45,633 nucleotides of DNA, from NCBI GenBank assembly GCA_903926465.1, contig CAIYJE010000005.1, forward strand, positions 1-45,633, given 5' to 3'. The notes beneath the pieces were generated by a model that was not told where the DNA came from, made no database searches, and worked only from the letters and a program-made list of their open reading frames with translations. Below are positions 1,276-12,682 of the stretch, one piece after another; positions within the stretch are counted from its first letter, which is position 1; every line of letters begins with the position of its first letter. The stretch is from an uncultured Planctomycetales bacterium. GTDB lineage: Bacteria; Planctomycetota; Planctomycetia; Isosphaerales; Isosphaeraceae. The position numbers and the translations under genes are program-made.

Positions 1276-2208
1276 ATGGGCCGCTATGGCCGCATCGTCT
1301 TCTTGGGTCTGGTGCTAGGCACCAGCACATCCTGGACCGAATTTTCCCAGGGGCAAGAACCGGGCCTCGAATCGATTTCGAATCCGGCTTCAGAGCCTGG
1401 ACGTAGTATCAAACGTGACCCGGGTGACAGGGGCATTGGTATTGGCCGCGAAAGCCTGTTAAGGCTGATCCAGAGTGCCAACCCCCTGCTCTGGCCGCTC
1501 ATGGCTTGTTCGGTGGTCATGGCGGGTTACATCTTCGAACGCGGACTGGCCCTGCGGCGAGCGCGGGTCATTCCCAAAGAGTTCGGCCAGCGGTTTCTGG
1601 AACGCCTGGGGCAGGGCAAGCTCGATCGGGAACGAGCCCTGGAACTTTGTCGAGCCAATGACAGCCCCCTGGCCCGGGTTTATGGCCATGCTCTGCGGTA
1701 CTGGGGCCAGCCGGCCGCCACTATTCGCCAGGCACTTGACCACGACGCCGCCAGTGAACTGCTCGGCCTCCGGAAGAATGTCCGGGTCCTGAACGCCACG
1801 GCAACCATTGCCCCGCTCCTGGGTCTGCTGGGGACCGTGGTGGGCATGGTGGAATCATTCGACGCCGTGGGTGGCGGACGCGTGGGCGGCGATTCCCGAA
1901 GCGCGGCTCTGGCCCACGGGATTAGCCTTGCACTCATGACCACCGGCGTTGGCCTGGCCATCGCCATTGTCTCAATCTGCTTCTACTACTACTACCTGCA
2001 GCGGATTGACAACCTGGTGCACGAACTTGATAACCAGGCCCGCCAGGTCATCGACCTGATCTCGGCCGAGGCGATCCGCGCCAGTATGGCTCCACCGCCC
2101 GTGATGCGGGGCCCCATGGTTGGACCAGGGCCCGATGCCGGCCCAGGCCCCGCCGCCGATCCGGGCCGGCCCCCCGGACGATCGCTCGGGCGTGTGGAAA
2201 CCCACTGA
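1276..2208 (+). CDS. exbB: MotA/TolQ/ExbB proton channel family protein
   Basis: A 310-residue inner-membrane protein of the ExbB/TolQ family, which forms the proton-conducting ring that powers TonB- or Tol-type work at the outer membrane. Three membrane segments fit the family: about 70-87 (LLWPLMACSVVMAGYIF), 174-194 (TATIAPLLGLLGTVVGMVES, the most conserved block) and 215-241 (ISLALMTTGVGLAIAIVSIC). The first 26 residues resemble a signal sequence, an extension common in longer ExbB proteins, and the C-terminal 45 residues are Pro/Gly rich and probably disordered. GGGAGAGGAG precedes the ATG. exbD follows after 75 bp in the same direction, so the pair is likely one operon. ExbB versus TolQ cannot be separated by sequence reading alone; no TonB gene is seen here. 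Confidence 0.9.
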   Translation: MGRYGRIVFLGLVLGTSTSWTEFSQGQEPGLESISNPASEPGRSIKRDPGDRGIGIGRESLLRLIQSANPLLWPLMACSVVMAGYIFERGLALRRARVIPKEFGQRFLERLGQGKLDRERALELCRANDSPLARVYGHALRYWGQPAATIRQALDHDAASELLGLRKNVRVLNATATIAPLLGLLGTVVGMVESFDAVGGGRVGGDSRSAALAHGISLALMTTGVGLAIAIVSICFYYYYLQRIDNLVHELDNQARQVIDLISAEAIRASMAPPPVMRGPMVGPGPDAGPGPAADPGRPPGRSLGRVETH

Positions 2209-2283
2209 TCGGAACGTCTCACCAGAGCCCGGTCAGGGATCGCCTGTTGACCAGGATCTTCGCCCCCAGGAAGGGACCCACTC

Positions 2284-2718
2284 ATGCTGGCCGACCGATG
2301 GCACGCCGACGAGCAACCGCACATTAACATGACACCCATGGTGGACGTTGTGCTGTGTCTGCTTGTCTTCTTCATGGTGGCCACACGGCTTTATGACTGG
2401 GATGACACCCAGTTTGAGGTCAAAGTTCCCCAGGTTGGTAGCGCGGCCCCGTTGACTACCGCCCCCGAAGACCTCGAACTTTCCATCGAGGGCCCTGGCA
2501 AAATCTCTGCGCTGGGTAAAATTTATGACCTGACCAGCCTCACGGCCCTGCTCAAGCAGGCCAAGGCCGGTTATGCCGACCAAGCCGTGCAGGTCCGTGG
2601 CGATGGCAGCCTGGCTTACCAGGCCCTGGCCGATGTCCTTTCCTGCTGTGATGAAGCCGGCATTTCCAACATCCGGCTCAGGGTCCGCCCCCGCGATGAT
2701 GGGCCCACCCGCCCCTAA
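2284..2718 (+). CDS. exbD: ExbD/TolR biopolymer transport protein
   Basis: A 144-residue protein with one N-terminal membrane segment preceded by the family signature INMTPMVDVVLCLLVFFMV. Asp21 in this segment is the expected proton-carrying residue. The remainder is a small periplasmic domain ending near residue 140, the usual ExbD length. The start is supported by AGGAAGGGA ahead of the ATG. It partners the ExbB gene just upstream; together they would convert proton motive force into movement of a TonB/Tol-like protein that is not encoded in the window. The acidic/polar residues before the membrane segment (ADEQPH) fit cytoplasmic placement of the N-terminus. Confidence 0.9.
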   Translation: MLADRWHADEQPHINMTPMVDVVLCLLVFFMVATRLYDWDDTQFEVKVPQVGSAAPLTTAPEDLELSIEGPGKISALGKIYDLTSLTALLKQAKAGYADQAVQVRGDGSLAYQALADVLSCCDEAGISNIRLRVRPRDDGPTRP

Positions 2719-2977
2719 GGCCCTGGATCCGAGGCCGGGACGGGCGAACTCCAGGTCCGCAGCGTCTGGCTCAAGTTTGAGGTCACTACCTCTCCAAGCC
2801 CCAATCAGCCACTTGATTCCCAAACACTCACACCCCGAACCGCAAGGAAAACCGGCACAGTCGTGAGAATTCACACAGAATTTGGTAGCTTGGTGGACCT
2901 TACGCAAACGTGGGCACGGCCAACTGACCACCCGGCGCCCCCTGCCCATCTGGAACGCCCGGCTTGAGACTGCCCCC

Positions 2978-3679
2978 ATGGATTCACTCATCCAGATTTT
3001 TGATGCGATTTTCCACCCCGACAAGCTGAATGAGCTGGCAACGTATCTGGGCCCCTGGCTGTACGTGGTCATGTTCGCCATCATCTTCGCCGAGACCGGC
3101 CTGGTGGTGACCCCCTTCCTGCCGGGCGATTCCCTGCTGTTCGGACTGGGCGCCATTGCCGCCGCCGAGGGGTCCAACATCAACCTGCCTCTGCTGGCAG
3201 GGCTCCTGGTGGTGGCGGCCATTCTGGGAGACGCCGTTAATTACACAATCGGCCGCTGGATTGGCCCCAAAGCATTCGCCAGTGAAAAATCCAAGCTTCT
3301 GAACAAGAAGCATCTGATCCGCGCCCATGAGTTTTACGCCAAGCACGGTGGCAAGACCATCATCCTGGCCCGGTTCGTACCCATCATCCGCACGTTTGCT
3401 CCGTTCGTGGCCGGTGTGGGCGAAATGAGCTATCTAAGATTCGCAGCCTACAACATCGTGGGTGGCGTGGTCTGGATCTTGCTCTTCTTGCTCGGCGGCT
3501 ACACCTTTGGCCAGCTTGCCTGGGTCAAATCCAATCACAAGCTCGTGTTCGGGGCCATCATCCTGATCTCGGTTCTACCGCTCATCTGGGAAGTGCTGCA
3601 GGCTCGCCTGGCCTCGAAACGGGGAGACTCGGCCCTGCTCCAGGCCACCACCCTGGGCGAAGACATCAGCAACCCCTGA
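2978..3679 (+). CDS. DedA family membrane protein (VTT domain)
   Basis: A 233-residue polytopic membrane protein of the DedA/VTT family, which in other bacteria is linked to lipid carrier recycling, envelope integrity and drug or pH resistance. Typical blocks are seen: ETGLVVTPFLPGDSLLFGLG near residue 30-55, then GRWIGPKAF, and the hallmark ILARFVPIIRTFAPFVAG with conserved Arg/Pro residues, followed by two hydrophobic helices. The ATG at 2978 is chosen over an in-frame TTG at 2882 because family members start just before the DxxxHPDKLNE-like segment and the extra 32 residues look non-coding. The gene is convergent with the histidine kinase that ends at 3817. Its specific substrate cannot be inferred. 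Confidence 0.88.
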   Translation: MDSLIQIFDAIFHPDKLNELATYLGPWLYVVMFAIIFAETGLVVTPFLPGDSLLFGLGAIAAAEGSNINLPLLAGLLVVAAILGDAVNYTIGRWIGPKAFASEKSKLLNKKHLIRAHEFYAKHGGKTIILARFVPIIRTFAPFVAGVGEMSYLRFAAYNIVGGVVWILLFLLGGYTFGQLAWVKSNHKLVFGAIILISVLPLIWEVLQARLASKRGDSALLQATTLGEDISNP

Positions 3680-3816: not shown

Positions 3817-6246
3817 TCAGGAGGTTGAGGTTCCAGGGACCATCATCCGACCGGCGATGGGAAGTAACACCCGGAAGGTGGTTCCCTGCCCAAATTCAGT
3901 CTTGACCTCAATCCGTCCCTGGTGTTCTTGCACGATCCCCAGACAGATCGCCAGACCCAGACCGGTCCCAACTTCCTTGGGTTTGGTTGTAAAGAACGGC
4001 TCGAAGAGCCTGGGCATGACTTCGGGGGAAATCCCCACTCCGTTGTCCGTGATCTCAATCACACCCCAGGGGGGCTCGGGATAGGTACGAATACGGATCC
4101 AACCCTCAGGCCGATTGGCCTCCTCAATCGCCTGTTGCGCATTGACCAGCAGGTTAAAGACGACTCGATGAATTTGGGCAAACACGCAGAGAATCCGAGG
4201 GCAGGCAATATCATCACGCTCAATCACAATTTTATGCGAGGAAAGCTGTTCGCGAGCCATCTCCAAGCTGGAAGTGACCAGTTCGCTCAGACCGACCGAT
4301 TCAATCACCGGTCGATCCATCAGCGCAAAGCCGCGCAAACTCTTCACGAGCTCGGCAATTTGGGTCACCCCCTTGCGGGTGCTCGCCAGAATGGGACCCA
4401 GGTTCTGGCGGATGTACGGAAGGTCAATCACCTTGGCCACGTCAACCACGGGCTGAATGAGTTCAGGACGCTGAACTTTTAGCTCTTCCCGCACGGGCTC
4501 GATCGCATCGACCATATTCATTAATTCGTGCGCATAGTCATCAATCACGGCCAGGTTGCTGACCACAAAAGCCAGCGGATTATTGATCTCATGAAGCATT
4601 CCTGCCCCCAGCAGTCCCAGCGAGGCCAGTTTCTCGGCCTGAGCAAGCCGAAGCTGCAACTTGGTTCGCTCAGACACGTCACGGATCGAAGCCAGAAACA
4701 GCTGGCGACCGGGGAGATTGATGCCCGTCAGGGCCATCTCCATGGGAAAGTGCTCGCCGTTCTTGCGTCGACCGGTCCACTCGGTATGCTTTCCCAGGTT
4801 TGTGATCAACTTGTTTTGAATGATTTGTTTGACGGCATTCGGATCTTTTGACCACCCCTCCTCGTGGATCAGGCGAGTGAACGACTGTCCCAGTACCTCT
4901 TGCTCCTGATAACCGAACAAGTGCTGGGCAGACGGGTTAAAGACCTGAATCTCACCCTCGGCACTAAACACCACAATAGCATCCAGATCCCCTTGAATCA
5001 GTGCTTCGTTCATTCGCTCTTTGATGACTCGCGCTTCTTCGGCAGTCTTATGCTTGGAGATATCGCGAGCCACGGAGAGGAGCTGGGGGCGATCCTGAAA
5101 ACGAATCGCCGTGTATACGATCTCGACCGGAAACGCGGTGCCATCTTTGCGGCGATACTCGGTCTCCATCGGAGAACTCGGGCCGGTTTGTGCCGCCTCA
5201 AAAACGGCCTGATACTTGCTGAGATCGTTACTGGGCTCGATGGCAGGCAACGTCAGGCTGAGCAAGTCGGGCTCAGCATAGCCCAATTTCTGGCACGCTG
5301 TGGAATTGGCGAACAGTATCCGCGCATCGCGGTTCAAGAAGACAATCGCATCACTGGAATGGTCACTCACCAGTTTGTAGCAAAGCAGATCTTCACACTG
5401 GTTTTCCAAAATCCGGGTCTGGTTCTGGGCCAAGGTCTCCTTGGCCTCCAGCAACGCATTCAGGGTGAGAATCTGCGACCGTGTAATCTCTGGGCTGAGA
5501 TTCAGGGGGCGTGCGTCACCGGCAAACCGCGGCCCCCCCACAAACGGCAAAAACGCGAGCTTGGTATACAGCGCCAGCGGCCGAAACAGGGCCAACTGAT
5601 CGGGGGAGATCCGTACCCGGCTGAACATCAGGACCGCGAACAGGCTGCCACCAGGCAGCAGCCCGCCAAAACCAAAAACCGAATCAATTCCGTATCGTTG
5701 CACAAACTCCGCTTGCGCAGGCAACGGGGCAGCGCCGTCGGTAGGTTCCAGATGAAAGACCTGGTAAAGCTGAGGCTCAATCGGCACCGATGGGTGGCTC
5801 TGGGGCTCCAGAACCAGGCTGGGCTCAATTTGAAGCTGTTCGAGGAGCTTGGCAATCATCGGCAATTGGCCAAGATCCTCTGGGCGCATCAGCGGAATCA
5901 CCGCGTGCGCGCTGGAACCCTGACGGTTGGTCCAGGCTGGCTCAACCCCCATGCTGCCCAGCAGCGTCAGGCACATGACCTTGGAACAGTCCGCGCGCTC
6001 CTTTACGGGCAAGCGTGCCACTGCCCGCTTCTTGAGCGATGCTTCCAGTAGGTCGACCGGCAGCGTGACAAACAGCCGGGTAAGAACGCAGGCCGGTTTC
6101 CCCTCCTCGTCGCACAGCTCGTGAAACAGGGTTTCAGCAATCCGCTGGGCGGCTGCTTCCATGGAGTCACAGTCATCACGCAGGTGATGCAAGCGACGAC
6201 CCAGGCCGATAAGTTCCGAGAATTGCAGCTCATCAAGGTTGAGCAT
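3817..6246 (-). CDS. PAS-domain sensor histidine kinase A
   Basis: An 809-residue soluble sensor kinase (no membrane segment seen). Residues 1-250 form an unrecognised domain that is shared with kinase B at 7167-9572 (shared blocks include LTLLGS, EPQ-YQVFH and SVFGFGGLLPG). Two PAS domains follow (about 295-405 and 415-535), each with the FPVE/FPME strand. The dimerisation box LHEINNPLAF places the phospho-acceptor at His552. The ATPase domain has an N-box (NLLVNAQQAIEE), G1 (DNGVGIS) and G2 (GTGLGLAIC). ATG 6246 is preferred over an upstream GTG because MLNLDELQF aligns with MFNL of kinase B, AGGA precedes it, and His552 then has the same number in both. The gene lies downstream of the response regulator and has no adjacent regulator of its own downstream. 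Confidence 0.9.
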   Translation of the reverse strand: MLNLDELQFSELIGLGRRLHHLRDDCDSMEAAAQRIAETLFHELCDEEGKPACVLTRLFVTLPVDLLEASLKKRAVARLPVKERADCSKVMCLTLLGSMGVEPAWTNRQGSSAHAVIPLMRPEDLGQLPMIAKLLEQLQIEPSLVLEPQSHPSVPIEPQLYQVFHLEPTDGAAPLPAQAEFVQRYGIDSVFGFGGLLPGGSLFAVLMFSRVRISPDQLALFRPLALYTKLAFLPFVGGPRFAGDARPLNLSPEITRSQILTLNALLEAKETLAQNQTRILENQCEDLLCYKLVSDHSSDAIVFLNRDARILFANSTACQKLGYAEPDLLSLTLPAIEPSNDLSKYQAVFEAAQTGPSSPMETEYRRKDGTAFPVEIVYTAIRFQDRPQLLSVARDISKHKTAEEARVIKERMNEALIQGDLDAIVVFSAEGEIQVFNPSAQHLFGYQEQEVLGQSFTRLIHEEGWSKDPNAVKQIIQNKLITNLGKHTEWTGRRKNGEHFPMEMALTGINLPGRQLFLASIRDVSERTKLQLRLAQAEKLASLGLLGAGMLHEINNPLAFVVSNLAVIDDYAHELMNMVDAIEPVREELKVQRPELIQPVVDVAKVIDLPYIRQNLGPILASTRKGVTQIAELVKSLRGFALMDRPVIESVGLSELVTSSLEMAREQLSSHKIVIERDDIACPRILCVFAQIHRVVFNLLVNAQQAIEEANRPEGWIRIRTYPEPPWGVIEITDNGVGISPEVMPRLFEPFFTTKPKEVGTGLGLAICLGIVQEHQGRIEVKTEFGQGTTFRVLLPIAGRMMVPGTSTS

Positions 6247-6267
6247 CAAGAAAATCCTGCCTGGGAC

Positions 6268-6316
6268 GATACGGCACCTGCAGATCAGCGGCACCACGGC
6301 TGAAGCTTAGGTCGCC
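6268..6316 (-). promoter_or_regulatory. Conserved leader blocks upstream of kinase A
   Basis: Reading toward the kinase A start on the minus strand, GGCGACCTAA (6307-6316) is followed by GTGCCGTATC (6268-6277) and then the ATG at 6246. The same two 10-mers precede kinase B (9634-9643 and 9592-9601) at nearly the same distances, although the sequence between them has diverged. The blocks are either leftovers of the gene duplication or conserved control sites; the spacing to the ATG differs by 2 nt, so they are not part of a shared longer coding frame. Confidence 0.35.
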
Positions 6317-6474
6317 AGATCCGCCGGCATACGTGGTGTTCCTGTGAATCACCATGGAGTATCGGAAGCCCAAGTCCTGCGAAAGCCCAAGGTCACGAGG
6401 CGCACGGGGTCATGAAGCCGTCGGTTTAGGAACCACGAACATCAAGAAACCTCCCCTTTTAGTGACGGAAGCGA

Positions 6475-6492
6475 GGAATGAACGGAATGGAC
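6475..6492. repeat. GAATGGAC-type short repeat
   Basis: GGAATGAACGGAATGGAC consists of two 9-bp near-copies. Similar GAATGGAC/GTCCATTC units occur in the gaps at 22050-22082 and 27492-27539. Confidence 0.4.
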
Positions 6493-6641
6493 ACGCCTGA
6501 CGCCTGAGTGGCCTGGCCTGGTCGATCATGTCTCTCCATTCCATCTATCAGGCCCATACTTAATCCTGAGATTCACAGACCGTACGCACCAAGACCAACC
6601 GCGCCAAGGTCTCTGAATCATCAGGCCCCCCTGGACCCTGG

Positions 6642-7163
6642 CTAACTGGGCTCCAGGGCTTCCAGGCACGCTCGCAGCATCTGGTTCTCTTCCTGGGCTT
6701 GCTTCAGAGCCTGGCGACAGTTTGCTAGTTCTTCGAACGTTTGAAAGATCCGGTGATACTCCACTGCCGCGTCATCCACCGCAGTGATCAGTTCCTCGGG
6801 ATACCAGGGTTTGCTGATGAAGCGGTAAACATGCCCTTGATTGACGGCGCTCACCAAGGATTCCAGGTCGGTATACCCTGTGTAAAGCATCCGGATTGCC
6901 TGCGGATACTTGGACTTCATCTTCGCCAGCATCTCAACCCCGGTCACGTCCGGCATCCGCTGATCGGTCAGGATAATCTCGACTTCGTGCTTGGACATCA
7001 GCTCAATGCCCTCGGCCGCGGAATGCGCGCGAAACACGTTGTAACGCCGACGTAGCAGGTGGTAAACCGTATTGCACACCTCGGGCTCGTCATCCACAAC
7101 CATCAGACCGTGTCGATGTTGCGCTTCACTTACTCCTGTGGCTTGGGACTCCGCAGCCGTCAT
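6642..7163 (-). CDS. Response regulator (REC domain with helical tail)
   Basis: A 173-residue protein with a receiver domain at about residues 19-135: acidic pair in MVVDDEP, phospho-acceptor Asp67 in LTDQRMP, a Thr in MLYTGY and a Lys in ISKPW. This fits the RpfG/HupR-like receiver subfamily. There is no DNA-binding or enzymatic output domain; residues 140-173 look like an amphipathic coiled coil (FEELANCRQALKQAQEENQM). The gene starts 3 nt after the kinase B stop, with AAGGAG embedded in the end of the kinase, so the two are translationally linked. It probably receives phosphate from kinase B, and perhaps from kinase A. With no output domain it may act by protein contact or as a phosphate sink. 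Confidence 0.9.
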   Translation of the reverse strand: MTAAESQATGVSEAQHRHGLMVVDDEPEVCNTVYHLLRRRYNVFRAHSAAEGIELMSKHEVEIILTDQRMPDVTGVEMLAKMKSKYPQAIRMLYTGYTDLESLVSAVNQGHVYRFISKPWYPEELITAVDDAAVEYHRIFQTFEELANCRQALKQAQEENQMLRACLEALEPS

Positions 7164-7166
7164 GTG

Positions 7167-9572
7167 CTAACTCCTTCGTCCCGAGATCGGAAGACTCACC
7201 CGAAAGGTGGCTCCCAGCCCAGGTTTACTTGAGACCTCGATCCGGCCCTTATGATTGGTGATGATCCCGTGGCAGATCGGCAATCCGAGGCCCGTCCCTT
7301 GTCCCACCGGCTTGGTTGTGAAGAATGGCTCAAACAGCCTGGGTAACACTTCAGGGGAAATCCCAGCCCCGTTATCTTCAATCTCGATGATCCCACAGGG
7401 TGGCTCGGCACGCGTGCGAATGGTGATCCGACCACCAGAACGATGGGCCGATTCAATGGCTTGCTGCGCATTGATCAGCAGGTTGAGAACCACCTGATTG
7501 ATCTGGGCCACCACGCAGATGATCGGTGGAGCCGGGGTATCTTCTCGCACAATTTCAATCCCATGCGCGGAGAGTTGCTGGCGAACCATTTCCAGACTGG
7601 TACTGACCACGTCTTTGAGCTCGACCGGTTCCACCGCCGCACGATCCACCCGGGTAAAGTCCCGGAGGTTCTTCACAATCTCGGCGATCCGGGCGACCCC
7701 CTTTCGCGTGCTGGCCAGAATCGGGTCCAGGTTCTGTTTGATATAGGGTAGATCAATATCACGAATCACGGCCTCAATCGACTGAAGAATCTGAGGGTGG
7801 TCCTTGAGGACCGTATGGATCGGCTGGGTAGCATCAATCAACTCTAAAAGCCCATGCGCATAAATTTCAATGACAGCCAGATTGCTGGCCACGTAGGCTA
7901 GCGGGTTGTTGATCTCATGGGCCACCCCCGCGCTCAGCAGGCCGAGCGAGGCCAACTTCTCGGCCTGAGAAATCCGAAGCTGCATCTTGTTTCGCTCGGT
8001 GAGGTCACGAAATGAGGCCAGAAAAATCAGACCTTCCGGGAGATCGATGGAAGAAATTCCCATCTCAACCGCAAACCGCTCACCACTCTTGCGCCGGGCG
8101 GTCACCTCAACGGTTCTCCCAATGATTTTGGGGATCCGCGTTCGGACATAGCGCTCGATCCCGGCCAGGTGCCGGGCTTGATCTTCCTCGGGCATCAAGA
8201 TCGTCGCGGGCTGGCCCATCGCTTCTTGTTTGGTAAATCCAAACATTTGCTCAGCGGCCGCATTGAACAGTTGAATGCGTGCCTCGGTGTTGGTCACCAC
8301 AATGGGATCCAGGGTTCCTTCCGTCAGGGCCCGGTAAAAGCGATCCTTGGCAATTCGAGCAGCCTCGGCGGCTTTGCGGTCGGTGATATCACGAACCACG
8401 CAAAGAACATACGGTTGACTCTCGTACGGGATGGGCGTCACCACAATCTCAACCGGAAAGAGCGTGCCATCTTTGCGGCGGTGCCGGGTTTCAAATGCCG
8501 GTAGATTCCCTTGTTGCGCTAAATCGAATACGCTCTGATATTGTGCCAGATCATAGACAGGATCAAAATCGGGTACGGTCAGGGTCGTCAATTCCTGCTT
8601 GGAGTACCCCAGCCGATAGCAGGCCGCCGCATTGGCGTAAATCACCCGTGCATCGCGGCCCAGAAAGAACATGCCGTCATTGGAACGATCGCTCATTAAT
8701 TGAAAACGTCGAAGCTCTTCCGACTGTTTTTCCAGGTTCCGGGTCTGCTCGATGGCGATGATCTCTTTGGCATTGAGCAGCGTTTCCAACGCGAGCGCAC
8801 GCGATTGGGCGCTCGCCTGTCCCGGCTTGTGCGGAAGCTTCTCTCCTTCCAAGACCGGTCCGTTGACAAACGGCAGCAGCGACAGCTTGATACTCAATGA
8901 GAGCGGCCGGAATTGAGCGGCCAGGTCGGCCGAGATCCTGACTCTGGTGAACAGCAGCACGGCATAAAGGCTCGATCCCGGAAGCAGACCGCCAAACCCA
9001 AGCACCGACTGGATTCCATGGCGATCGACAAACCCGGCCTGTGCCGGCACCGAGGGGGAACCAACGGCCTCTTCAATATGGAAAACCTGATAGATCTGGG
9101 GCTCAACCTCGTCAATGGGGTAACGGTGGGGTAAGACCAGGCGATTGGGATCGATACCAAGCTGTTCGATCAGCTTGCTGATCATCGGAGCTTGTTTCAG
9201 CACCTCTGGGCCCGGCAACGGAATCACGTCGTGATTCACCGAGCCGTGGCGGCCGTTCCAGGCGGGCTCAATCCCCTTGCTACCCAGTAATGTCAGACAG
9301 ACCACGTTTGACGGTTCATGGCTCACCGGTTCGGACAACCGGGCCAAGGCGCGCTGCCTGAGCAAATCAGGGAGCGCACCGAGTGGGCGAGTGACAAACA
9401 GGCGGGCCAAGGCACAGGCAGGCCGCCCCTCGTTGTCCACCAGCTCATCAAACAGCGTGGAAACAATGCGTTGGGCCACCGCTTCCATCAAAGCGTCGTC
9501 AGTACACGGATGCCGTAATCGGTGAACCAGCTCAAGCAGATCGCTGAATTTCGGACGGCAAAGATTAAACAT
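7167..9572 (-). CDS. PAS-domain sensor histidine kinase B
   Basis: An 801-residue paralogue of kinase A with the same order: an unrecognised N-terminal domain (1-250), two PAS domains, a dimerisation box VAHEINNPLAYVASN with His552, and an ATPase domain with NLLINAQQAIESA, DNGAGIS and GTGLGLPICHG. No membrane segments are seen, so it should sense a cytoplasmic signal. ATG 9572 is chosen over an upstream TTG because it aligns with the kinase A start (MFNL/MLNL) and gives the identical His number. The response regulator follows directly. The two kinases plus the regulator look like a local tandem duplication in which one regulator copy was lost or never gained. The N-terminal domain ends in a GGLLPGSSLYAVLLF block that resembles a GAF-type fold, but this is a guess. 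Confidence 0.9.
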   Translation of the reverse strand: MFNLCRPKFSDLLELVHRLRHPCTDDALMEAVAQRIVSTLFDELVDNEGRPACALARLFVTRPLGALPDLLRQRALARLSEPVSHEPSNVVCLTLLGSKGIEPAWNGRHGSVNHDVIPLPGPEVLKQAPMISKLIEQLGIDPNRLVLPHRYPIDEVEPQIYQVFHIEEAVGSPSVPAQAGFVDRHGIQSVLGFGGLLPGSSLYAVLLFTRVRISADLAAQFRPLSLSIKLSLLPFVNGPVLEGEKLPHKPGQASAQSRALALETLLNAKEIIAIEQTRNLEKQSEELRRFQLMSDRSNDGMFFLGRDARVIYANAAACYRLGYSKQELTTLTVPDFDPVYDLAQYQSVFDLAQQGNLPAFETRHRRKDGTLFPVEIVVTPIPYESQPYVLCVVRDITDRKAAEAARIAKDRFYRALTEGTLDPIVVTNTEARIQLFNAAAEQMFGFTKQEAMGQPATILMPEEDQARHLAGIERYVRTRIPKIIGRTVEVTARRKSGERFAVEMGISSIDLPEGLIFLASFRDLTERNKMQLRISQAEKLASLGLLSAGVAHEINNPLAYVASNLAVIEIYAHGLLELIDATQPIHTVLKDHPQILQSIEAVIRDIDLPYIKQNLDPILASTRKGVARIAEIVKNLRDFTRVDRAAVEPVELKDVVSTSLEMVRQQLSAHGIEIVREDTPAPPIICVVAQINQVVLNLLINAQQAIESAHRSGGRITIRTRAEPPCGIIEIEDNGAGISPEVLPRLFEPFFTTKPVGQGTGLGLPICHGIITNHKGRIEVSSKPGLGATFRVSLPISGRRS

Positions 9573-9591: not shown

Positions 9592-9643
9592 GATACGGCA
9601 CGCGCACAAGCGGAGTGCAACTCTTGCTGGAGTTTAGGTCGCC
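9592..9643 (-). promoter_or_regulatory. Conserved leader blocks upstream of kinase B
   Basis: GGCGACCTAA (9634-9643) and GTGCCGTATC (9592-9601), both read on the minus strand, match the blocks upstream of kinase A in order and spacing. Their retention while the intervening bases have changed hints at shared control of the two kinases. Confidence 0.35.
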
Positions 9644-9834: not shown

Positions 9835-10134
9835 TCAGCCTTCCTCGGGCTTCAACGCTTCTTCCAGCATATCCAGCGGGACGGATTCCAGTCGCCCGCC
9901 CAGCAGCGCGGTCAGTTGCAGGCCCACCATGGCCTCGCTGCTGCTCCGGCGTGGGTCCCTGAGCAGTTCCAGAAACGGCTCGGCACCAATCAATACAGCC
10001 TTGGGTTTGCCATGAACCGTGAGCACAAACCGAACGTCAGACCGCTCCAGTTCGCGCAGGATTCCAGGGAGGTTCTGGTGCAATTCCCGGCTGCCGATGA
10101 TGCGAACCGGGGTTTCAGGCGTTTTCTCCGCCAT
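9835..10134 (-). CDS. Phd/YefM-type antitoxin, no toxin partner seen
   Basis: A 99-residue protein. The N-terminal half RIIGSRELHQNLPGIL...LTVHGKPKAVLIGAEPF has the Phd/YefM antitoxin pattern: a short beta strand, a helix that ends in the LPxxL block, then two strands of the G-K/R-P-x-A-V-L/I type. Such proteins dimerise, bind operator DNA and neutralise a toxin (Doc, YoeB or VapC class) through the C-terminal tail. AGGATGG lies before the ATG. No toxin-like frame of the expected 80-140 codons is found on either side (about 260 bp downstream and 410 bp upstream were checked), so it appears to be an orphan or to act as a stand-alone DNA-binding regulator. Confidence 0.7.
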   Translation of the reverse strand: MAEKTPETPVRIIGSRELHQNLPGILRELERSDVRFVLTVHGKPKAVLIGAEPFLELLRDPRRSSSEAMVGLQLTALLGGRLESVPLDMLEEALKPEEG

Positions 10135-10544: not shown

Positions 10545-11933
10545 TCATGCCCCGTGACCCAGGGTCACGGTCGGTGCGCCTGGCTCTGGTAAATCCGGCA
10601 CCGTGCCTGGACGGCGTGCCAGCCAGCCCAGGCCCAGAAGCGCGGCCACGAATGAGCCGGCCAGCACCCCCATTTTGGCCCGGTCAAGCCGAACGGCATC
10701 CTCAAACGCCAGGCCGGCGATGAAGAGGGCCATTGTGAAACCAATGCCACAAAGCAAACACGCCCCAAACAGCTTGGACCAGGTAACCCCGGCCGGCAAG
10801 GCCGCCAACCGCAACCGGACCGCCAGCCAGGAAAAACTCATCACGCCAATCGGCTTGCCCAGCACCAGGCCCAGCAGCACGCCCAGGGTGATGGGGCTGC
10901 GACACGCATCCGCCAGCCCACCCGCACTCACCGCCACGCCGGCGTTTGCCAGCGCAAACAGGGGCATAATCACCCAAGAAACCCAAGGCACCAGCGCATG
11001 CTCAAGCCGCCTGAGCGGTGTTTGCACCGCCTCACACGCCAGCTCCAGGGTCTCTACCACCTCAAGTTCATGCCCCGAAAGCGCCTCAGGCTGCCGTTCA
11101 TCCCCGTGATCCTGAAGCTGATTGACCAGGTCACGGGTCAACTGCACAAATGCACGGCCGTTGATCCGCCGCCGGTCCGGAATCGCCAGCGCCAGCAGCA
11201 CCCCCGCAATGGTGGCATGAACACCGGAGGCCAGTACGGCCAGCCACAGCCCAATTCCCACCAGCAGGTAAACCAGCGGCCGTCGGACATGAAACAGATT
11301 GAGAACCACCAGCAAACCCAGCAGGCAGCCGGCGGCGGCCAGCGCCGCAAGATTCAGGCCCGAACTATAGAAAATGGCAATCACCAGCACCGCACCCAGG
11401 TCGTCCACAATGGCCACCGCCGCCAGGAACACCTTGAGCCCAACGGGCACCCGTTTCCCCAGCAGTGCCAGCACCCCCAGCGCAAACGCAATGTCGGTGG
11501 CCATGGGTACGCCCCAGCCACGCTGACCACCGCCGCCCAGGTTTAATGCCGTGAAAATGAGAGCCGGCACCAGCATGCCTCCCAGCGCGGCCGCCATCGG
11601 CAAGGCGGCACGCCGCACCGACGCCAGTTCACCCGAAAGCACCTCACGCTTGATCTCTAGCCCTACCATCAGGAAGAAAATGACCATCAGGCCATCATTG
11701 ATACATTCCCCAAGCGACTCTTCGATGTGAAACCGCCCGAAATCCAGCTCCAGCGGGGTGTGCCAGAACGCAAAATAACTGGCACCCACCGATGAGTTGG
11801 CCCACACCAGCGCAATCAGGGCGCAGACGATCAGAACGATGCCACTGGTGGCCTCGGTCTGGAGGTACCGCTGAAACGGGCGAATCAGCCGCTCGGCCGG
11901 CGTGGGCGGAAATGGGAACGGGCGGTGCTTCAA
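10545..11933 (-). CDS. nhaA: Na+/H+ antiporter NhaA
   Basis: A 462-residue inner-membrane antiporter that exchanges cytoplasmic Na+ for protons. Family blocks are clear: EATSGIVLIVCALIALVWAN at the first membrane helix, INDGLMVIFFLMVGLEIKRE, GVPMATDIAFALGVLALLG, and the AIVDDLGAV block whose two aspartates (177 and 178) correspond to the ion-binding pair of E. coli NhaA. I chose the TTG at 11933 because GAAGGAG lies 6 nt upstream and the protein then begins about 20 residues before the first family block. A longer frame from ATG 12071 would overlap mobA by 25 bp, has no RBS and adds 46 residues unlike the family. A hydrophilic loop of about 50 residues occurs after IPDRRRINGRAFV. The gene follows mobA on the same strand. 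Confidence 0.92.
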   Translation of the reverse strand: MKHRPFPFPPTPAERLIRPFQRYLQTEATSGIVLIVCALIALVWANSSVGASYFAFWHTPLELDFGRFHIEESLGECINDGLMVIFFLMVGLEIKREVLSGELASVRRAALPMAAALGGMLVPALIFTALNLGGGGQRGWGVPMATDIAFALGVLALLGKRVPVGLKVFLAAVAIVDDLGAVLVIAIFYSSGLNLAALAAAGCLLGLLVVLNLFHVRRPLVYLLVGIGLWLAVLASGVHATIAGVLLALAIPDRRRINGRAFVQLTRDLVNQLQDHGDERQPEALSGHELEVVETLELACEAVQTPLRRLEHALVPWVSWVIMPLFALANAGVAVSAGGLADACRSPITLGVLLGLVLGKPIGVMSFSWLAVRLRLAALPAGVTWSKLFGACLLCGIGFTMALFIAGLAFEDAVRLDRAKMGVLAGSFVAALLGLGWLARRPGTVPDLPEPGAPTVTLGHGA

Positions 11934-12046
11934 CCGAAGCTCCTTCGGCTCAATAGTCCAGATTGACCAGTGGACGAAAGTATCACGGTCTGGGCCCAAC
12001 TCGTCAACCGCGGCATTCACCAGTACAAGCCAGCCCCACCCGGGCC

Positions 12047-12682
12047 TTAACCTAACACCGAACTCGGCCATTCGGCCAGGGCCCGCTCGTACTCTTCCGG
12101 CGTGTTGAGGTTGCGCAAAGTGGCAAGCTCTGGGTCATAACCCCGCAAGATCTCGGGGCCCAGCACCCTGGCCCGCAAAGACTCTTCCAAACTGCTGAGC
12201 CGGAACTGCCCGGCCGCCAGCATCGTTTCCATCACCGGCAGCACAACGCTCCGCCGGTACAGTGCCGCCAGAGGATGCCGGTAGCCCTCAACCCACGGAA
12301 TCACCAACTCGACCTCGGCGGCCGCCATCTGCTGAACCAGACCAAGAATCCAGCCGGGTGCCAGAAACGGAGTGTCTACGGCCGTGGCATAAACCAGGGC
12401 AATTTCGGTCGGCAGGGCCGCCATGCCGGCGGCCAACCCCTGCAGCGGACCCCGGCCGTACACCGCATCACGCGTTACCACCACCCCTGGGGGCAAGGCC
12501 GGCAACTCCTGCCCAGCGGCCGCCACCACCACCACAGGCCCTTCCCCCATCGCCAGCCACACACGGTCGACCATCCATTCCAGCAGGGTCTGACCCCCAA
12601 ACGGGAGCCAGGCCTTGGGTCGGCCCATACGGCGACTCTCTCCACCACACAGAATCACCGCTCCCAGACGCTCCGCAGCCAT
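12047..12682 (-). CDS. mobA: Molybdenum cofactor guanylyltransferase MobA
   Basis: A 211-residue nucleotidyltransferase that would attach GMP to molybdenum cofactor to make the bis-MGD form. The N-terminus GAVILCGGESRRMGRPKAWL is the GTP-binding signature of the family, including the G-G-x-S-x-R-M-G and the catalytic-site Lys. The later DTPFLAP block carries the Mg-binding Asp. ATG 12682 has AGGA 8 nt upstream; longer frames start with a TTG and add unrelated residues. A likely client is the molybdopterin oxidoreductase encoded at 39525-41621, 27 kb away. The gene is divergent from the DUF4919-like gene and precedes nhaA on the same strand. Confidence 0.88.
   Translation of the reverse strand: MAAERLGAVILCGGESRRMGRPKAWLPFGGQTLLEWMVDRVWLAMGEGPVVVVAAAGQELPALPPGVVVTRDAVYGRGPLQGLAAGMAALPTEIALVYATAVDTPFLAPGWILGLVQQMAAAEVELVIPWVEGYRHPLAALYRRSVVLPVMETMLAAGQFRLSSLEESLRARVLGPEILRGYDPELATLRNLNTPEEYERALAEWPSSVLG

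Follow-up and report, generated by a model that had tools for sequence, protein, structure and literature searches.

The signalling helix has been described as a conserved coiled-coil helix, about 40 residues long, that lies between signalling domains (PMC1592074). In the family Isosphaeraceae, a cluster (L075–L092) composed of a multi-PAS kinase, a stand-alone receiver (RR1), a receiver-kinase and a second receiver is the gene arrangement with which the present locus is best compared, and a named relative of its kinases is found in Singulisphaera sp. GP187, which belongs to the same family as the host of the locus. Among the open-access papers listed by our searches, we recognised nothing on the gene cluster described here, on the N-terminal domain of its kinases (N-domain) or on the RR1 cluster.

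Here, we have analysed a stretch of DNA of 45,633 nucleotides (the window) from an uncultured Planctomycetales bacterium of the Isosphaeraceae, which carries a soluble cluster of two histidine kinases, K1 and K2, and one response regulator, RR. The reading that we consider probable, with some reservation, is that a kinase with a GAF-like sensor was duplicated whole, that both copies feed the one receiver, and that the output of the receiver lies in its tail.

Organization of the locus

The cluster lies on the minus strand in the order K1 (7167–9572), RR (6642–7163) and K2 (3817–6246), exactly as a preliminary description made from the sequence alone had placed it. K1 encodes a soluble histidine kinase of 801 aa starting at the ATG at 9572; a TTG at 9620 is a possible alternative start, and the residues that it would add are unlike those preceding the K2 ATG. 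K2, which starts at the ATG at 6246, encodes 809 aa with a K1-like architecture. RR starts 3 bases past the K1 stop, and a gap of 395 bases (6247–6641) separates it from K2. The K1 leader and the stretch just before K2 give a local alignment score of 36.5, none of 300 mononucleotide shuffles exceeding 28.0, and on the strength of this resemblance K2 may have a transcription start of its own. No consensus promoter was found in the RR-K2 gap, promoter-like and terminator-like sites are about as numerous as in shuffled sequences (2 vs 2.4 and 9 vs 6.4, respectively), and no known RNA element in the window reached its gathering score.

With regard to the surroundings, a Phd/YefM antitoxin-like gene of 99 aa (9835–10134, minus strand; Pfam 29.0 bits vs a cut-off of 29.8) lies upstream of K1, and an NhaA-type Na+/H+ antiporter gene is located at 10545–12071 (minus strand; Pfam Na_H_antiport_1, E 5e-153). 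On the plus strand, a row of MotA/ExbB-type, ExbD-type and VTT-domain membrane genes occupies 1276–3679.

Domain architecture and catalytic core of the kinases

K1 is composed of a GAF-like N-domain, a linker, two PAS domains, a DHp helix and an HATPase domain. The N-domain covers residues 1–241 (8850–9572, minus strand, as are all coordinates of the cluster), as judged from an alignment with 29 other sequences and from fold models, and is followed by a helical linker at approximately residues 250–290 (8703–8825), recognised by inspection of the alignment. The two PAS domains occupy residues about 298–523 (8004–8681; Pfam), the codon of the acceptor His lies at 7917–7919, and HATPase_c was assigned by Pfam to 7185–7508, where the N, G1, F and G2 boxes are intact by inspection. 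In K2, the corresponding N-domain is encoded at 5530–6246 (profile and alignment) and the acceptor His codon at 4591–4593.

Two PAS domains and HATPase_c were detected by Pfam in each kinase, the latter with E-values of 6.4e-26 in K2 and 5.6e-25 in K1, and HisKA remained below the Pfam cut-off in both (15.9 and 22.2 vs 26.9 bits). The motif HEINNPL is present in all 15 kinase cores aligned, K1 and K2 among them. By their DHp helix with an acceptor His and their HATPase_c domain, K1 and K2 thus qualify as histidine kinases, and both copies keep what their sequences indicate to be an intact catalytic core. Counted from the ATG starts, both proteins have their acceptor His at position 552. No obvious membrane helix is present, the highest 19-residue hydropathy means being 1.83 (K1) and 1.79 (K2), and five motif blocks occur once per kinase at residues 30, 51, 92, 157 and 192. 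In all of these respects, namely the number of PAS domains, the position of the acceptor His, the absence of a membrane helix and the identical positions of the five blocks that it quoted, the preliminary description agrees with the present results. NCBIfam equivalog models (EspC, EspA and others) also matched K1 and K2, all far below their cut-offs (best 25 of about 90 matches), and were set aside.

Origin of the pair

Over 800 aligned residues, K1 and K2 share 54% identity (E 0.0), a value that varies between the N-region (138/255), the second PAS domain (53/130) and the ATPase region (82/121). In a kinase-core tree of K1, K2, 12 operon kinases and the GP187 kinase, K1 and K2 are sisters with a support of 100/99; when three distant outgroup fragments were added, their support was 82/99, in a run whose bootstrap had not settled. 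They are also sisters (100/100) in an N-domain tree of 30 sequences, and at a threshold of E 0.001 the genome has no further copy of the N-domain. The trees show K1 and K2 to be whole-gene tandem duplicates. Duplication also accounts for the N-domain that the two kinases had been described as sharing and for the same number of their acceptor His, so that the identical numbering cannot serve as independent evidence. An origin of K1 and K2 in separate lineages, which had been named as an alternative, is contradicted by both trees.

The split between K1, K2 and the GP187 kinase on one side and the 12 operon kinases on the other has a support of 96/97 (only 59/89 with the outgroup fragments added), and the N-domains of these three kinases group at only 52/87 in the N-domain tree. 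K1/K2 and the GP187 kinase may share a single fusion event or stem from separate ones.

The two copies have diverged unequally. In the core, the branch of K2 is 2.8 times that of K1 (0.77 vs 0.27), and the difference is smaller in the N-domain (0.55 vs 0.42). Because of this long core branch and the 395 bases that separate it from RR, K2 could have gained another partner. If so, K2 would be insulated, serving a different receiver since the duplication, and only K1 would feed RR, as an ordinary pair accompanied by a paralogue. This arrangement appears rather unlikely to us, although it deserves weight: K1 and RR are 3 bases apart, K2 lies downstream of the long gap behind a K1-like leader, and the genome holds 35 matches to the receiver family, which means that other partners exist. 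Against it stands the segment around the acceptor His, which is common to K1 and K2. Both have A, S and N at H+7, H+11 and H+12, positions that we take, from EnvZ work, to be specificity positions, and the S-N at H+11/H+12 is confined to these two among the kinases compared (N-N in 12 of the 13 others and N-D in one).

The receiver and its relatives

RR contains a Response_reg domain at residues 21–129 (Pfam, E 8.4e-20), followed by a tail of about 44 residues, and Pfam detected no output family, as had been stated for the regulator. The motifs VVDDEP, TDQRMP, LYTG and SKPW are present. With an acidic pair, an acceptor Asp, a Thr/Ser and a Lys and without an output domain, RR (6642–7163) has the sequence features of a stand-alone receiver, and its tail, similar to those of the RR1 proteins, is coiled-coil-like by inspection. 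In a receiver tree, RR falls within RR1 and not with the receivers of receiver-kinases (100/97), on a branch of 0.86 for which the program issued a long-branch warning. A match at 1e-15 is found in 30 of the 40 relatives searched.

The context of RR1 was examined in 17 loci with a stand-alone relative, plus one locus (L087) of the own genome. A receiver-kinase lies downstream on the same strand in 16 of the 17 loci, with gaps of up to 741 bases (BLAST), and was confirmed by Pfam in both loci scanned (L077 and L084); in the 17th (L091), the receiver-kinase match runs off a short contig. A K1-like kinase is located directly upstream of RR1 in 12 of the 17 loci (BLAST) and is lacking at that place in the other five. 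A second receiver follows beyond the receiver-kinase in 12 of 17 loci and was confirmed by Pfam in the three scanned. The RR1 cluster is a candidate relay. In the window, the receiver-kinase position downstream of RR is taken by K2. The own genome has a receiver-kinase on another contig (L087:5365-6669), which starts 12 bases from the contig end.

Since 12 of the 17 loci have a K1-like kinase immediately ahead of RR1, it is plausible that the two kinases of the window serve one receiver. In the favoured reading, one ancestral kinase, which had a GAF-like N-domain and a helical linker in front of its two PAS domains and HisKA/HATPase core, was duplicated whole, and K1 and K2 would both probably phosphorylate RR. 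The GAF-like domain would most likely bind a cytosolic small molecule, and its state would be passed on to the kinase by way of the linker and the two PAS domains. With diverged sensors, two related signals may then set the phosphorylation of one receiver, the output of which would most likely be a protein-protein contact through its tail; the RR1 relatives presumably act likewise on the adjoining receiver-kinase.

Two other roles for the pair may be considered. K1 and K2 might be opposed on RR, one acting mainly as kinase and the other mainly as phosphatase owing to differing affinities of their GAF-like domains for the ligand. Duplicated and unequally diverging copies around one receiver would suit such a division, as would the HEINNP motif kept in both, but no sequence feature was found that separates a kinase-biased from a phosphatase-biased copy, and we consider this improbable. 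Alternatively, RR could serve as a sink or shared buffer for phosphate and produce no output itself, as its missing output domain and its position between two kinases might suggest. The preliminary description had offered signal integration or a sink. The 12 of 17 loci make its two-kinase, one-receiver part plausible, whereas nothing tested speaks specifically for a sink, and the RR1 relatives keep both the coiled-coil-type tail and the downstream receiver-kinase (16 of 17), suggesting a specific partner. The fixed tail and fixed neighbour of this receiver family favour an effector or relay role, and we give a sink a quite low probability.

Nature of the N-terminal domain

Residues 1–250 of K1 and K2 have no Pfam match, and a comparison of the 30 N-domain members with Pfam gave seven families at E 10 or less, the best at 0.05 and none of them GAF. 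No NCBIfam family matches the K1 N-domain; eight NCBIfam families each matched one of the 30 members (best 0.0045), and PADLOC also gave matches (best 0.057), all of which were judged to be due to chance. By sequence, no solved structure matched better than E 0.86 with a single sequence or 0.23 with a profile.

Two AlphaFold2 models, each based on an alignment of three sequences (K1, K2 and the GP187 kinase locus L012), were weak, with a mean pLDDT of 48.9 and a pTM of 0.47 for K1 as query and 60.8 and 0.66, respectively, for L012. For both, the leading Foldseek matches in PDB are GAF/cyanobacteriochrome sensors and LuxR-type pheromone-binding domains. The best E-value is 4.8e-4 for the K1 model, with two matches at 0.001 or below, and 1.4e-3 for the L012 model, with none at 0.001 or below; among the matches listed, TM-scores on the query range from 0.22 to 0.43. 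VIA-align placed phytochrome modules first (Z 10.0 over 155 residues, rmsd 3.7; Z 9.3 over 153 residues, rmsd 3.9), and methionine sulfoxide reductase fRMsr, which we take to have a GAF fold, reached Z 9.0. In a BFVD search, three of the first 10 matches are named GAF proteins.

Profile comparison points in the same direction. The 30-row N-domain alignment matched a set of 30 GAF_2 domains from related genomes in hhalign at E 0.0027 (probability 11%, 62 columns), and at E 0.0045 without the three Isosphaeraceae rows. The controls gave 0.42 (PAS), 0.77 (receiver) and 0.11 (HATPase), and the lowest E in column shuffles was 0.067 for a set of eight and 0.037 for a further 100. GAF_2 itself, used as a positive control, matched five phytochrome GAFs of the phylum at E 1.1e-6, and the N-domain matched the same five at E 0.42. 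Taken together, the models and profiles suggest that the N-domain is GAF-like; it appears to be neither phytochrome-like in sequence nor a member of a GAF family filed in Pfam. The term "unrecognised" used for it previously therefore holds in the sense that no Pfam or NCBIfam family covers it, but no longer in the sense that nothing resembles it, given the GAF-like character of the weak fold models and, weakly, of the profile.

That the N-domain is specifically a haem or bilin sensor and not a general ligand-binding GAF-like domain is highly improbable and was not supported by the phytochrome-GAF profile comparison and the PHY search: phytochrome chromophore-binding modules are its best VIA-align neighbours, but phytochromes are numerous in PDB, so that a GAF-like model would tend to find them, the profile match to the five phytochrome GAFs is no better than the controls, no PHY domain was found in the genome, and no Cys or His is invariant across the 30 members, though H114 is shared by 90% or more of them and M130 by every one. 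Haem binding as such is neither supported nor excluded.

Distribution of the N-domain in fused and split forms

With a 3-row profile, the N-domain was found in at least 38 of the 392 sampled genomes of the phylum, its own included; three of these match only at E 3.5e-4 to 7e-4, and 17 come from one family (f49). A 30-row profile detected it in at least 10 of 397 genomes of the class. Both numbers are lower bounds because at most seven candidates were scored per genome. Within the Isosphaeraceae, two of 45 genomes have the N-domain, including that of the window. Plasmids, phages and viral contigs gave no match, and a contig scan bearing on the distribution outside Planctomycetota, based on two insensitive back-translated patterns, yielded a single relative; similar sequences may occur in other phyla.

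Apart from K1 and K2, proteins that begin with the N-domain include a hybrid kinase (L147, same gene as in L037) and a GGDEF protein in which Pfam found an additional, ordinary GAF domain (L024). At most of the loci L022–L036 (families f49 and f98), proteins of 520–545 aa carry, behind the N-domain, a helix of related type, then a segment that is hydrophobic by inspection and finally a C-terminal part that is uncharacterised; the one scanned (L022) matched no Pfam family.

The two genome surveys also revealed 18 stand-alone N-domain frames of 245–317 residues, all of them contained in the 20 regions retrieved for this comparison. Of these frames, 12 lie directly upstream of a signalling partner on the same strand, with gaps of -22 to +39 bases. 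According to Pfam, which was applied to all 12, the partners are eight histidine kinases (L128, L129, L130, L131, L132, L137, L138 and L145), one GGDEF protein (L133) and three cyclase/Ser-Thr kinases. The L145 pair was read from an internal ATG, and Pfam lists only ATPase and PAS domains for its partner. At the last three loci (L135:3285-5979, L136:114-2841 and L140:2412-5067), the N-domain gene overlaps by about 10 bases a gene that fuses an adenylate/guanylate cyclase to a Ser/Thr-type protein kinase. The 12 pairs cover nine families and are not independent, four of them (L130–L133) coming from one genus of f49. Six stand-alone genes were not counted as paired: L142 lies at a contig end, L143 and L146 have no close same-strand partner, and the reading frames downstream of L134, L139 and L141 are unclear. 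A further N-domain protein of 456 aa (L144) is also followed by a kinase.

Several partner genes of the stand-alone N-domains open with a helix of the type LRSQxAALExLLEVxE, which also comes after the N-domain in the fused kinase of GP187 and, with a weaker resemblance, in those of the window, in an alignment whose rows were picked by eye; the K1 linker at approximately residues 250–290 is the segment that resembles it. The coexistence of fused and split forms points to a sensor-effector pair with putative docking. More tentatively, and at somewhat less than an even chance, the N-domain may found a GAF-like family as yet without a name, members of which would also act as independent sensor proteins that dock on the opening helix of the partner, K1 and K2 being fused and duplicated versions in which two sensors address one coiled-coil-tailed receiver.

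Significance

The cluster follows ordinary two-component logic with an input module that no model describes, and this N-domain is, on the sequences compared, neither unique to the pair nor kinase-specific. It is the part worth keeping: neither Pfam nor NCBIfam yielded a model for it, and with kinases, GGDEF proteins and cyclases alike it occurs in a fused and in a split form. A model would annotate many proteins. The split pairs offer a simple system in which to follow the communication between a soluble sensor and a kinase by means of a helix.

Comparison with known systems

LuxR-type acyl-homoserine-lactone binding domains (TraR, CepR2 and SdiA) are among the leading Foldseek matches of both models but have no sequence match to the N-domain, and they are coupled to a DNA-binding domain, an architecture unlike that of K1 and K2. 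The GAF modules of phytochromes and cyanobacteriochromes are the top VIA-align neighbours (Z 8.2–10.0, best 50 listed per model), from which the N-domain differs by the lack of profile similarity to the five phytochrome GAFs of the phylum, of an invariant Cys, and of a PHY domain in the genome. With regard to GAF domains in general (PF13185 GAF_2 and PF01590 GAF), the order of helices and strands predicted in the weak models is compatible with GAF, about 62 columns near the C-terminus of the N-domain match the final part of GAF_2 (E 0.0027), and both types of domain precede kinases and cyclases as a cytosolic input. Nevertheless, no Pfam GAF model reaches the N-domain, though a separate GAF domain was found in L024; the N-domain has about 240 residues vs the 136 positions of the GAF model, an additional helix that separates strands one and two in its predicted structures, and conserved blocks of its own.

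The linker of K1 is comparable in length and place with the signalling helix (PMC1592074).

The kinase of Singulisphaera sp. GP187 (L010/L012, an ORF of 730 aa) has an N-domain 46% identical to that of K1 and a related core. Unlike K1 and K2, it has one PAS domain and neither an adjoining receiver nor a second kinase among the L012 ORFs, both by inspection, and for its N-domain the 241-aa stand-alone protein of L014 is a closer relative (63%) than the N-domain of K1. Finally, the Isosphaeraceae cluster of multi-PAS kinase, RR1, receiver-kinase and receiver resembles the locus in that RR groups with RR1 and that its kinase is 35–45% identical to K1 and K2 over the PAS domains and core, whereas the window has K2 in place of the receiver-kinase and a kinase that bears the GAF-like domain.
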